NCBI RefSeq assembly: GCF_000243335.1
Contig: NZ_JH597773.1
Location: 3,466,156 to 3,530,155, forward strand
Direction: 5' to 3'
DNA: 64,000 bases
Source: Leptonema illini DSM 21528
GTDB lineage: Bacteria; Spirochaetota; Leptospiria; Leptospirales; Leptonemataceae
Part shown: positions 50,684-58,393 of the stretch, piece after piece
How positions within the stretch are numbered: the stretch's first letter is position 1
Layout of the letters: each line of letters begins with the position of its first letter
Translations under genes and position numbers: made by a program
The notes under the pieces: generated by a model
The model's database searches: none
What the model saw: only the letters and a program-made list of their open reading frames with translations
What the model was told of the DNA's origin: nothing

Positions 50684-50959
50684 ATGGCCCTTCGAGAAAC
50701 CACCAAGCAGGACCGAATCGAGCTCAGAGTCAACCAGCGCCAGAAGGCCCTCATAGAAGAGGCGGCGAGTCTGAGCGGCATGAGTTTAAGTTCCTACATG
50801 CTTGCAAAAGCGCTCAAATCGGCGCGACAGGAGATCCAGGAAGCCGAAATCATCCGGCTTTCTGATCGTGATCGCGATCTGTTTCTCAAAGCTCTGGATA
50901 CGGCCCCAAAACCCAGCGCCAGACTAAAGAAAGCGGTAAAAAGGTTTCACGACCGGTGA
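50684..50959 (+). CDS. DUF1778 (TacA-type) antitoxin
   Basis: A 91-residue ribbon-helix-helix antitoxin of the DUF1778 family: RIELRVNQRQKALIEEAASLSGMSLSSYML, then a C-terminal helix that masks the toxin active site. Its stop overlaps the toxin GTG by four bases (GTGA). It would neutralise the GNAT toxin and autoregulate the operon. Name by family only. Confidence 0.88.
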   Translation: MALRETTKQDRIELRVNQRQKALIEEAASLSGMSLSSYMLAKALKSARQEIQEAEIIRLSDRDRDLFLKALDTAPKPSARLKKAVKRFHDR

Positions 50960-51459
50960 GTGAATTTCGGATTGTCCCGTTTTCCAGAGCGATCGACCTG
51001 CAACAGTTCGACGCCGGAGTCGATGCGCTGACCGAGTATCTCAAGAAATATGCCCGACAGAATCAGGACAGAGGCATCGGCAGGACCTACGTACTGACAG
51101 ACTCCAACAACAGAGCCATCGGATACTACGTTGTGAGCATGGCCGAAGTCTCATTCGCATCCTTGCCCGACTTGGTTAAAAAGCGTGTTCCTCGCTATCC
51201 TTTACCTGCAATGCGAATTGGAAGACTTGCCGTCGATCATCGCTACCGCGGCCAGAAACTCGGCGAGATGCTTCTCGTAGACGCTTTGCAACGCTCCGTC
51301 AATCTGTTCCATCAGGTCGGTCTCTTTGCGGTGATTGTCGATGCGAAGGATGCGGTAGCAGAAGGATTCTATGAACACTTCGGCTTCAAGCATTTCGTCG
51401 ATCGGCCCGCCTCGCTATTCCTGCCAATGGGAAGCATTGTGAAAGCGTTTGAATCCTGA
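50956..51459 (+). CDS. GNAT toxin (TacT/AtaT-type)
   Basis: A 167-residue GNAT toxin. The acetyl-CoA loop is HRYRGQKLGEMLL (motif A), and the late AVAEGFYEHFGFKHF carries the conserved Tyr of TacT/AtaT. These toxins acetylate the aminoacyl group of charged tRNA and block translation. Translation is coupled to the antitoxin through the GTGA overlap. The pair is intact and probably functional. Confidence 0.88.
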   Translation: MSEFRIVPFSRAIDLQQFDAGVDALTEYLKKYARQNQDRGIGRTYVLTDSNNRAIGYYVVSMAEVSFASLPDLVKKRVPRYPLPAMRIGRLAVDHRYRGQKLGEMLLVDALQRSVNLFHQVGLFAVIVDAKDAVAEGFYEHFGFKHFVDRPASLFLPMGSIVKAFES

Positions 51460-51875: not shown

Positions 51876-52766
51876 CTAAAGCAACCGAGCAATTGCGGCT
51901 TGATCTTGAGCAGAAATCTGCGGAACCCGCCTCTCTCGATCCTTTTTGATCTGATTTATTAGCTGGTCAAAATCATATAGGGTAACCTTACCGATGTCCA
52001 GACCGAGCTTGCGAACAGATAGCTTAAAAATGATGGATTGCCCCCTTTTTGGATCGAAAACCGTGGAAGTGGTTTCCTTGGGAAAGCTGTCATCAATCAC
52101 CATCCGTACATTTCGAAGTTCTGTCGCCTCCCATAGGAAGGTAAGCAAGGTCTCACGTCCAAACCAGCCAAAACCATTACTCTCCCAGTGGTCCTGTCGG
52201 TCCGTCGTGGCCCTGTCGCACAGTATCAAGATTTCTGCAAGTATCGTGTAAGGAAAATCCTGATAGGAATGAACCGCAATGATTCGCATAAAGAAGAGAT
52301 CATCGTAATCCTTTCCCCAATCCAAGCCCCAATCAGTATAATGACGCAAGTCAGCTATTCTGCCCTGAGATGAATTCGCAGCTTGCGCTAATGATTCGCT
52401 TAGCTGTTGAAAGCCATCATCGAAAGATCTACGGAAGTCAGCATAGAGTTTCTCTCTTAGAAAGAGAGGAATTTTACAATCATCAATCAAAATTGGGAGG
52501 AGTATGATATGACGCTCTTCAAGCTCGCGCATTAAACCTGCATTCAACTCCTTTCTGCACCACTCTGATTCGACTGCTGCTTTCGAAAGTACGATACACA
52601 AGTAATCAGCATTTTGAATAGCCTGCTGAATTCGGTCCAAGAGCGAATCACCGACTTTCAGTTCCCAGCGATCGAGCCAAACATTCATGCGCTCTTTGAC
52701 AAGCTCTACTGCGAGCTTATCGACAAACGCGCTATCAGTTCTCGAGTAACTAATAAATACCGACAT
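51876..52766 (-). CDS. Stand-alone TIR-domain protein (putative NADase)
   Basis: A 296-residue protein. The TIR domain (1-130) opens FISYSRTDSAFVDKLA, and the catalytic Glu of NAD-cleaving TIRs is E73 in SEWCRKEL. The BB-loop-like region (WELKVGDSLLD) is also usual. Residues 150-280 form a second domain that I do not recognise and that could sense phage or a signal. Bacterial TIR proteins cut NAD in antiviral defence. It sits in the toxin-antitoxin island beside a small membrane protein on the same strand and looks AT-richer than the core genome. Confidence 0.82.
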   Translation of the reverse strand: MSVFISYSRTDSAFVDKLAVELVKERMNVWLDRWELKVGDSLLDRIQQAIQNADYLCIVLSKAAVESEWCRKELNAGLMRELEERHIILLPILIDDCKIPLFLREKLYADFRRSFDDGFQQLSESLAQAANSSQGRIADLRHYTDWGLDWGKDYDDLFFMRIIAVHSYQDFPYTILAEILILCDRATTDRQDHWESNGFGWFGRETLLTFLWEATELRNVRMVIDDSFPKETTSTVFDPKRGQSIIFKLSVRKLGLDIGKVTLYDFDQLINQIKKDRERRVPQISAQDQAAIARLL

Positions 52767-52964
52767 TTGTTAACTCCACTCCGCTGATATTGTTACCGTC
52801 GCCTGCAAGGTGTACCCGAGTCCGGACGGTCCGGTCCATGGAATCCATAAACTCCAGACGTTATCTACGACCCATGTGCCTCGTCCTCTCGAGCCGAGTC
52901 CTAGGTGGCAAATCGGTAGTTATCGGCATGGAATAACGCAGTGGCTACTGGATGCGAGTATCGG

Positions 52965-53198
52965 CTATTTGATCCAGACCGAAATCAACTGCAGAGCAAA
53001 ACCAGCTATCAATGCAACGAGCCCGCTTTTTGTCCATATGTGCCGCTTGCTCTCTGCTCCCTCTTCGGCTTTCTGAATGTCGCCCTCGTCCCAGGTTTGA
53101 CCTGACGGGCGCCACGGCACCTCTTTCCACCAAAGTATGGACACACCCACGATATCAAGACATAGGCCTGCACTGGCAAAGATTGTACTGCTTTCCAT
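52965..53198 (-). CDS. Small two-helix membrane protein
   Basis: A 77-residue protein. Two hydrophobic helices (about 4-23 and 57-75) flank a charged loop with DEGDIQKAEEGAESKRH. The pattern LDIVGVSILWW near the start and GFALQLISVWI at the end recalls a widely spread family of small membrane proteins of unknown role. It is upstream of the TIR gene on the same strand, 198 bases away. ATG at 53198 is chosen over an earlier in-frame ATG at 53246. Confidence 0.55.
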   Translation of the reverse strand: MESSTIFASAGLCLDIVGVSILWWKEVPWRPSGQTWDEGDIQKAEEGAESKRHIWTKSGLVALIAGFALQLISVWIK

Positions 53199-53291: not shown

Positions 53292-53837
53292 TCATCCCCC
53301 TCTCACCAGCCGCTCCATCGCATCGATGGCAAGGGCATAGTTATCCGAAGTGCGGCCGATCTTCGCGCCGAGTATGCCGCCTTCAAGCAGCATGAAGGCG
53401 ACCGTGGCCAGCTTCTCTGTATCGGTCGGAGGCATCTCGGCGGCGGCGATGGCTGCGTCAAAGACGGACTTGAAACGCGCCCTTGCATCGCCATAGATGC
53501 GATGCAGGATGCGATGGAAGTCCTCGTCGACGTTGCTCATCTCCTGAATGAGATTGGCGACGGGGCATCCGCGGCTGAGATCCAGTCGTCCCATTTCGCG
53601 AAGGCTTGCGAAAAGGTTATCAAGATAGGGAGGCTCCACATCCGGAACGAGGATCTGCAGTCTCTCTTCCATCATTGCCATCGCCATCTCTTTCTTACTC
53701 TGAAAGAAATGATACATCGAGCCTTTGTTGATGCCGGCCTTGCCGAGGATGGCCGACAGCGACGCTCCCTGATAGCCATGCGTGAAGATCTCGTCGAAGG
53801 TGATGTCGATCAGTCGTGCCCTTGTATCGTGCCTCAT
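53292..53837 (-). CDS. TetR-family regulator divergent from qorB
   Basis: A 181-residue TetR protein from the ATG at 53837, which has GGAGG nine bases upstream; in-frame ATGs at 53846 and 53870 are weaker. The helix-turn-helix GYQGASLSAILGKAGINKGSMYHFF is typical, and the C-terminus (VAFMLLEGGILGAKIGR) suits the NemR/AcuR-like group. Two operator palindromes lie between it and qorB. Probably represses both. Confidence 0.9.
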   Translation of the reverse strand: MRHDTRARLIDITFDEIFTHGYQGASLSAILGKAGINKGSMYHFFQSKKEMAMAMMEERLQILVPDVEPPYLDNLFASLREMGRLDLSRGCPVANLIQEMSNVDEDFHRILHRIYGDARARFKSVFDAAIAAAEMPPTDTEKLATVAFMLLEGGILGAKIGRTSDNYALAIDAMERLVRGG

Positions 53838-53870
53838 TTTTCTCATCCTCCGAAAAAAATCCGCGCCCAC

Positions 53871-53919
53871 TTGACCGATCGGTCAGATTACACTATACTG
53901 AATTTGACCGATTGGTCAA
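53871..53919. promoter_or_regulatory. Two TetR operators with overlapping divergent promoters
   Basis: TTGACCGATCGGTCAG (53871-53886) and TTGACCGATTGGTCAA (53904-53919) are near-perfect palindromes starting 33 bases apart. For qorB, the -35 TTGACC (53871) lies in the left site and the -10 TATACT (53894-53899) 17 bases on. For tetR on the minus strand, the -35 TTGACC (53919-53914) lies in the right site, and TATAGT (53897-53892) 16 bases on. Confidence 0.85.
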
Positions 53920-53952
53920 GTCACTTATCACACCACCAGAGAGGATTTCATA

Positions 53953-54801
53953 ATGATAGTAGTAACAGCAGCATCGGGCCAGCTCGGACGGCTTGTCGTC
54001 CAGGAGCTCTTAAAATCGGTGCCGGCCGCAGAGATCGTTGCCGGAGTCCGTTCTCCCGAAAAGGCGAAGGATCTTGCGGGCACAGGCGTGCAGGTGCGCG
54101 AACTCGACTACACAAAGCCAGAGACGATTCAGGCCGCCCTTGCCGGCGTGAAGAAACTGCTTCTGATCTCGTCTAACGCAGTCGGATCGCGGGCCGCCGA
54201 ACATAAAAACGTAATTGATGCGGCAAAAAAGGTCGGAGTGGAGCTCATCGCCTACACGAGCATATTGCATGCCGACACGACTCCGATGATTCTCGCGCAG
54301 GAGCATAAAGAGACCGAGGCCATGATCAAGGCGTCGGGACTGCCTTACGTTTTTCTTCGCAACGGATGGTACACCGAGAACTACACGGCCAATATCGCTC
54401 CAGTCCTTCAGCATGGCGCCGTTCTCGGATCGGCGAAAGACGGTAAGTTTTCGTTAGCCGCCCGGGCCGACTACGCAGCGGCCGCGGCGAAGGTTCTAAC
54501 GCTGGATAACCAGGCCGGCAAGATCTACGAGCTGGCCGGCGACGTCGCCTATACGCTTGCCGATTATGCCGCCGAGATCGCGAAGCAGACGGGCAAGACC
54601 ATCGTTTACAGTGATATGCCCGAGGCCGACTACGCGAAAGTTCTGGTCAGCGTCGGACTGCCCGAAGGCTTCGCGAGCGTGCTCGCCGACTGCGACACCG
54701 GCGCCTCGAAGGGAGCGCTCTTTGAAGACAGCAAAACGCTGAGCAAGCTGATCGGTCGTGCGACGACTCCGATCGCCGAGTCGATTAAGGCTGCGCTGTA
54801 A
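53953..54801 (+). CDS. qorB: NAD(P)H-quinone oxidoreductase QorB/YtfG-like
   Basis: A 282-residue SDR/NmrA-type enzyme closely resembling E. coli YtfG along its length. Marks are the Rossmann VTAASGQLGRLVV, LLLISSNAVGSRAAEHKNVI, FLRNGWYTENYTANI, and the ending FEDSKTLSKLIGR. It reduces quinones with NADPH. Its promoter lies between two TetR operators, so it is probably induced by a quinone or electrophile via the divergent regulator. Confidence 0.92.
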   Translation: MIVVTAASGQLGRLVVQELLKSVPAAEIVAGVRSPEKAKDLAGTGVQVRELDYTKPETIQAALAGVKKLLLISSNAVGSRAAEHKNVIDAAKKVGVELIAYTSILHADTTPMILAQEHKETEAMIKASGLPYVFLRNGWYTENYTANIAPVLQHGAVLGSAKDGKFSLAARADYAAAAAKVLTLDNQAGKIYELAGDVAYTLADYAAEIAKQTGKTIVYSDMPEADYAKVLVSVGLPEGFASVLADCDTGASKGALFEDSKTLSKLIGRATTPIAESIKAAL

Positions 54802-57910: not shown

Positions 57911-58393
57911 CTATGTTTGCAGGATTCTCGTGAGTTTTCTGGTGGCTGCATCGACACAAATAGTGCAAAAAACCTCAGGATTCCAGTGGCCCTTCACCCA
58001 AGATGGTGAAGTTCCTCCATCTTCCAGCGAGATCACCCCCATTGCGATCAGCATCAGATAGACGAATATATAACAACGAGAATATCCTGTAGCATTCGCA
58101 ATCGCCGACAACCTTCCCCAGTCGCGGTCATCCGGATAAAAATTCACCCGGCACAGCTCCTGCCCTTCTTCCTGATACTGCTTTTTCCATTTGCCGGTCC
58201 TCTCAAGGAAGCCCAGCTTGAAATCCAGCATAGGATCATTCATAAGCCCGGCCAGATACGAAGAAAGCGCATGATGCCCTATCTTTAGGTAGGGGCTGCG
58301 CCAGAAAAACCGCTTAAAATACGATTTCGGAATCAGCAAGGTGGAGCGGGTCCGGTAGTAGGGCTCCCCATCAATGCAAGTCTGCTCGTTCAT
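57911..58393 (-). CDS. DUF1564 family protein, copy 2
   Basis: A 160-residue protein. It matches the copy at 32444 at about 136 of 160 positions, is on the opposite strand 25 kb away, and shares upstream sequence before the ATG (TCCGTT around the PSV codons). The 3' half is almost the same at DNA level. Recent duplication or gene conversion is likely. Function is unknown. Confidence 0.85.
   Translation of the reverse strand: MNEQTCIDGEPYYRTRSTLLIPKSYFKRFFWRSPYLKIGHHALSSYLAGLMNDPMLDFKLGFLERTGKWKKQYQEEGQELCRVNFYPDDRDWGRLSAIANATGYSRCYIFVYLMLIAMGVISLEDGGTSPSWVKGHWNPEVFCTICVDAATRKLTRILQT

Follow-up and report, generated by a model that had tools for sequence, protein, structure and literature searches.

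A gene in the window, as we call the whole 64,000-nucleotide stretch of DNA that was analysed, encodes a TIR domain followed by a conserved C-terminal domain (CTD), and we read its product as a TIR NADase of anti-phage type that works without a partner gene and was acquired by horizontal transfer. The probability that we attach to this reading is a little under 0.6. The TIR domain would cleave NAD+ once activated, while the CTD would hold the TIR domain inactive, or would permit its assembly only upon a phage-related cue, and the infected cell would then stop growing or die. The gene would have moved between genomes together with phages and defence genes.

TIR enzymes are common to bacterial, plant and animal immunity, and the activators of the bacterial ones are mostly unknown. 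In the protein described here the catalytic domain is a known one, the CTD is unnamed, and the family is unreported as far as the libraries searched show. Being a compact, one-gene TIR system with a conserved and unnamed candidate sensor, located in a phage hotspot and in restriction operons and present in several phyla, it should be an easy object for experiment.

Defence by a single gene is supported by the conserved catalytic residues, the fusion of the CTD to the TIR domain, the low GC content of the gene, the defence and prophage contexts of its relatives, and the lack of a common partner gene. Against this, the neighbours within the window are toxin-antitoxin-like and regulatory genes, and do not form a classic defence island. 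TIR domains can also make signals rather than deplete NAD, which counts against a reading based on NAD depletion. The features discussed are listed in Table 1.

Table 1. Coordinates of the TIR-CTD gene, its domains and the upstream gene, numbered from the first nucleotide of the window.
Feature	Position	Strand	Basis
TIR-CTD protein gene, 296 aa	51876..52766	-	Open reading frame; architecture shared with 11 further full-length relatives
TIR domain, residues 1-125	52392..52766	-	PF13676; structural match to the TIRs of AbTir, BtTir and SPARTA (Z 12-15)
WxxxE motif W69-C-R-K-E73, predicted NADase glutamate	52548..52562	-	Aligned with AbTir W204/E208
CTD, residues 134-296; candidate sensor or regulator	51876..52367	-	Conserved family, AlphaFold2 model, no Pfam match
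Two-helix protein of 77 aa, a neighbour that is probably unrelated	52965..53198	-	Hydropathy; unlinked to other TIR-CTD members

The TIR domain and the CTD

The Pfam TIR_2 model (PF13676) matches residues 3-122 with an E value of 1.6e-32 and a score of 113 bits, compared to a curated cut-off of 28. Residues S6, D32, W69, E73 and R80 align on S140, D167, W204, E208 and R215 of AbTir, and all five are invariant in the aligned TIR-CTD sequences (11/11). In AbTir, mutation of these residues lowers NADase activity (PMC11374754). The original prediction held that the TIR domain keeps the NADase glutamate, E73, and this is borne out, since E73 closes the W69-C-R-K-E73 motif and aligns with the WxxxE glutamate of AbTir. 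Judged from its sequence, the TIR domain is predicted to be catalytically competent as an NADase, able to cleave NAD+.

The tryptophan of the same motif would also fit a different outcome of catalysis. AbTir W204, which W69 matches, is needed for production of 2'cADPR (PMC11374754), and messengers of this type are made by the ThsB proteins of Thoeris, which are TIR sensors (PMC11204291). The protein could then be a Thoeris-like signaller, whose TIR domain responds to infection by producing an isomer of cyclic ADP-ribose, which activates an effector encoded at another place in the genome. However, no effector gene is common to the TIR-CTD loci, and no SIR2, SLOG or Macro effector occurs among the ten window proteins that were scanned. 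A scan of the window's own genome for STALD (ThsA-type SLOG) was also empty, but so were its controls, so that it argues only weakly in the same direction. A signaller of this kind is considered unlikely.

From about residue 134 onwards, the protein has no match in Pfam, NCBIfam, PADLOC models or PDB sequences, and a sequence profile of the CTD also failed to find a match in the PDB. The C-terminal domain had been described as unfamiliar when the gene was first noticed, and these searches agree. The CTD is a conserved module without a named family. A CTD profile that was built without the member from a P2-like phage (L141) scores that member at 175 bits, which shows that the CTD is a genuine family and not the result of alignment drift. 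The mean pairwise identity within the family is 59.5% for the TIR half and 25.3% for the CTD, as is expected if the enzyme core is kept while the sensing part diverges.

A structure model made from the single sequence was poor, with a pLDDT of 38. The AlphaFold2 model made from nine alignment rows had a pLDDT of 78 and a pTM of 0.56. Over residues 134-296 its block mean pLDDT was 69-92, and this region is modelled as four strands, two helices, four strands and two helices. Fold searches with the whole model returned lists filled by TIR structures (Z 12-15 over residues 1-135), and the absence of an entry for the modelled CTD from lists that are filled by the TIR half does not show that its fold would be new. 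Foldseek gave no match below 1e-3 against viral models.

In 274 genomes of Gammaproteobacteria and 198 of Desulfobacterota, the CTD was not found without a TIR domain, secretin-like matches aside, so there is no domain swap to back a sensor role. We infer a sensing role and a trigger for the CTD, which is a candidate sensor or regulator.

Some weaker matches were discarded. Those of the CTD profile in three Desulfobacterota genomes were weak, proved on inspection to be secretin-like (PilQ), and were rejected. Within one Spirochaetota genus, four genomes gave weak matches to 480-aa proteins whose frames show no TIR domain; these were judged to be due to chance. A guessed motif pattern, DPxRG..LGxDxG, gave chance matches only.

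Relatives and their genomic context

Relatives with the same TIR-CTD architecture number 11, with one more that is split in two frames, making 12 full-length members when the window's own protein is included. They come from Bacteroidota, Pseudomonadota, one genome of the Desulfobacterales and a contig of a P2-like phage. The full-length relatives have 38-47% identity, which excludes chance as an explanation for the TIR-CTD protein. Single-sequence queries with the CTD only found no relatives among plasmids, phages, viral contigs and genome contigs. The first full-length homologue, in a viral contig, came from an alignment of TIR relatives, and a two-sequence query made of this homologue and the window's protein gave further relatives in the genome collection. 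These are from a Desulfobacterales MAG, Pseudomonas aeruginosa PA7 (where the prophage gene is the same as the viral-contig homologue) and six Bacteroidota, one of them being the split copy (L070/L147). Profile searches gave three more Pseudomonadota genomes, and a viral scan gave the P2-like phage contig, which is present twice (L140/L141). The split copy is from Lunatimonas (L147:7134-7907) and may represent a pseudogene or result from faulty assembly.

The family is spread sporadically. It was found in 4 of 398 Pseudomonadota genomes (centre included), no full-length member was found in about 394 other sampled Bacteroidota genomes, and among 393 Spirochaetota genomes it occurs only in the window's own. 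The GC content of the TIR gene is 45.2%, as against 53.5% for the window, which places it in the lowest 1.4% of 600-bp windows.

In the P2-like phage (L141), the TIR-CTD gene is flanked on one side by gene A, the P2-type replication initiator (phrog_91), and on the other by the genes for portal and terminase, at a locus that also has an Ogr/Delta-like regulator. The gpA-gpQ locus of P2-like phages is a described anti-phage hotspot, at which phage AC1 carries a validated defence locus made of TIR and transmembrane proteins (PMC9122126). In P. aeruginosa PA7 (L066) the gene is in a prophage, among methyltransferase and SbcC-like genes. The remaining contexts of note are type I restriction-modification operons. 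At L142 the gene order is hsdM, a small orf, hsdS, TIR-CTD, a 400-aa orf, Abi_2, a small orf and GmrSD; at L068 a gap of 40 bp separates the TIR-CTD gene from hsdM before it, and upstream there are also hsdS, an unnamed gene and the gene for an AAA ATPase; and at L146 it adjoins hsdM.

An all-vs-all comparison of the neighbouring ORFs identified hsdM as common to three loci, and an ATPase gene and a second gene as common to two, and found no partner gene common to all of the TIR-CTD loci. The antiviral role proposed from the window alone gains from the antiviral contexts of the relatives, that is the P2-like phage hotspot and the type I restriction-modification operons; the membrane partner proposed with it does not.

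The gene lies next to or among hsd genes at 3 of 13 loci, which could mean that it guards type I restriction-modification: an Hsd complex that is blocked or inhibited, or else an anti-restriction protein, would be detected by the CTD, which would then free the TIR domain. There are, however, no hsd genes close by at the remaining loci that were examined, namely those of the phage, the prophage, several Bacteroidota and the window itself, and type I restriction-modification operons commonly carry unrelated defence genes as cargo, and we regard a guard as distinctly unlikely. A related and tentative suggestion, against which the odds still lie, is that this is an unnamed and widely scattered single-gene TIR defence family, in which the CTD would have a novel sensor fold and would watch for one specific phage event, perhaps an attack on type I restriction enzymes.

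Several other genes in the window and in its genome were identified in passing. At 50684-51459 (+ strand) the gene of a TacA-like antitoxin precedes that of a GNAT acetyltransferase, and the two are likely to be a TacAT toxin-antitoxin pair. Directly downstream of the TIR gene is a HigA-family antitoxin (TIGR02607; 51466-51774, - strand), with no HigB toxin ORF evident beside it. At 53292-54801 a TetR regulator (- strand) is divergent from an NmrA-like NAD(P)-binding protein (+ strand), a typical regulator-target pair. The gene at 57911-58393 (- strand) encodes a DUF1564 protein (PF07600), a family found mainly in Leptospira relatives. Elsewhere in the genome there are two further TIR domain genes, at G000:C1:1186869-1187153 (in a 337-aa frame) and G000:C1:1255740-1256012 (in a 253-aa frame).

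The upstream two-helix gene

A two-helix protein of 77 residues had been reported upstream of the TIR gene on the same strand, and the ORF is present as described, 198 bp from the TIR gene, and its two hydrophobic segments have Kyte-Doolittle values of 1.8 and 2.0. The one homologue found, with 36% identity in a pairwise alignment, is encoded next to a terminase gene on a plasmid of Salinibacter; the existence of this distant homologue implies that the ORF is probably a real gene. No homologue was found near any TIR-CTD relative among the loci examined, in 60 sampled Spirochaetota genomes, or in phages and viral contigs. The GC content of the gene is 51.7%, which matches the host, whereas that of the TIR gene does not.

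The two genes had been proposed to form a two-component antiviral set. In such a set the TIR protein would signal to or contact the two-helix protein, which would open the membrane. They are adjacent and on one strand, and the design does exist, in the TIR and transmembrane-protein set of the P2-like phage AC1 (PMC9122126). However, the lack of a linked homologue at any of the relatives' loci examined, the position of the only relative beside a phage-like terminase, and the mismatch in GC content with the TIR gene leave the idea unsupported, and there is no sensor domain within the 77 residues. Absence of linkage to TIR genes elsewhere had been named with the original proposal as an outcome that would speak against it, and this is the outcome at the loci examined. 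The two-component set is the least likely of the explanations considered, and very improbable, and the two genes are best regarded as chance neighbours in the window.

One relative does have a membrane protein gene nearby. At L143:5929-6492, 65 bp upstream of the TIR-CTD gene, is a DUF4760 protein with seemingly two N-terminal membrane helices. It is unrelated to the 77-residue protein of the window, and its position just upstream leaves some room for partners.

Comparison with known TIR systems

The TIR-CTD protein has the TIR fold and the catalytic residues, including WxxxE, in common with the AbTir and BtTir NADases (PDB 7uwg, 8g83 and 7uxr). The match ends at the TIR domain, and these PDB sequences show no sign of the CTD. 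In structure, the TIR half matches SPARTA TIR-APAZ best, with Z 14-15 over 121-126 residues, but the match is confined to residues 1-130, and inspection of the neighbouring ORFs revealed no short Argonaute (pAgo) gene near the TIR-CTD genes.

Thoeris ThsB likewise has a TIR domain, and PADLOC gave weak matches to it over residues 2-105 of the window's protein. In contrast to ThsB, the protein has an additional conserved CTD that is not covered by the PADLOC models, and no ThsA partner (SIR2-SLOG or Macro) was seen, either among the ten window proteins or as a gene common to the relatives' loci.

The comparison with phage AC1 is by description. The AC1 set consists of three genes with transmembrane partners, as against no common partner here, but in both cases a TIR gene occupies the gpA-portal hotspot of a P2-like phage, as it does in L141.
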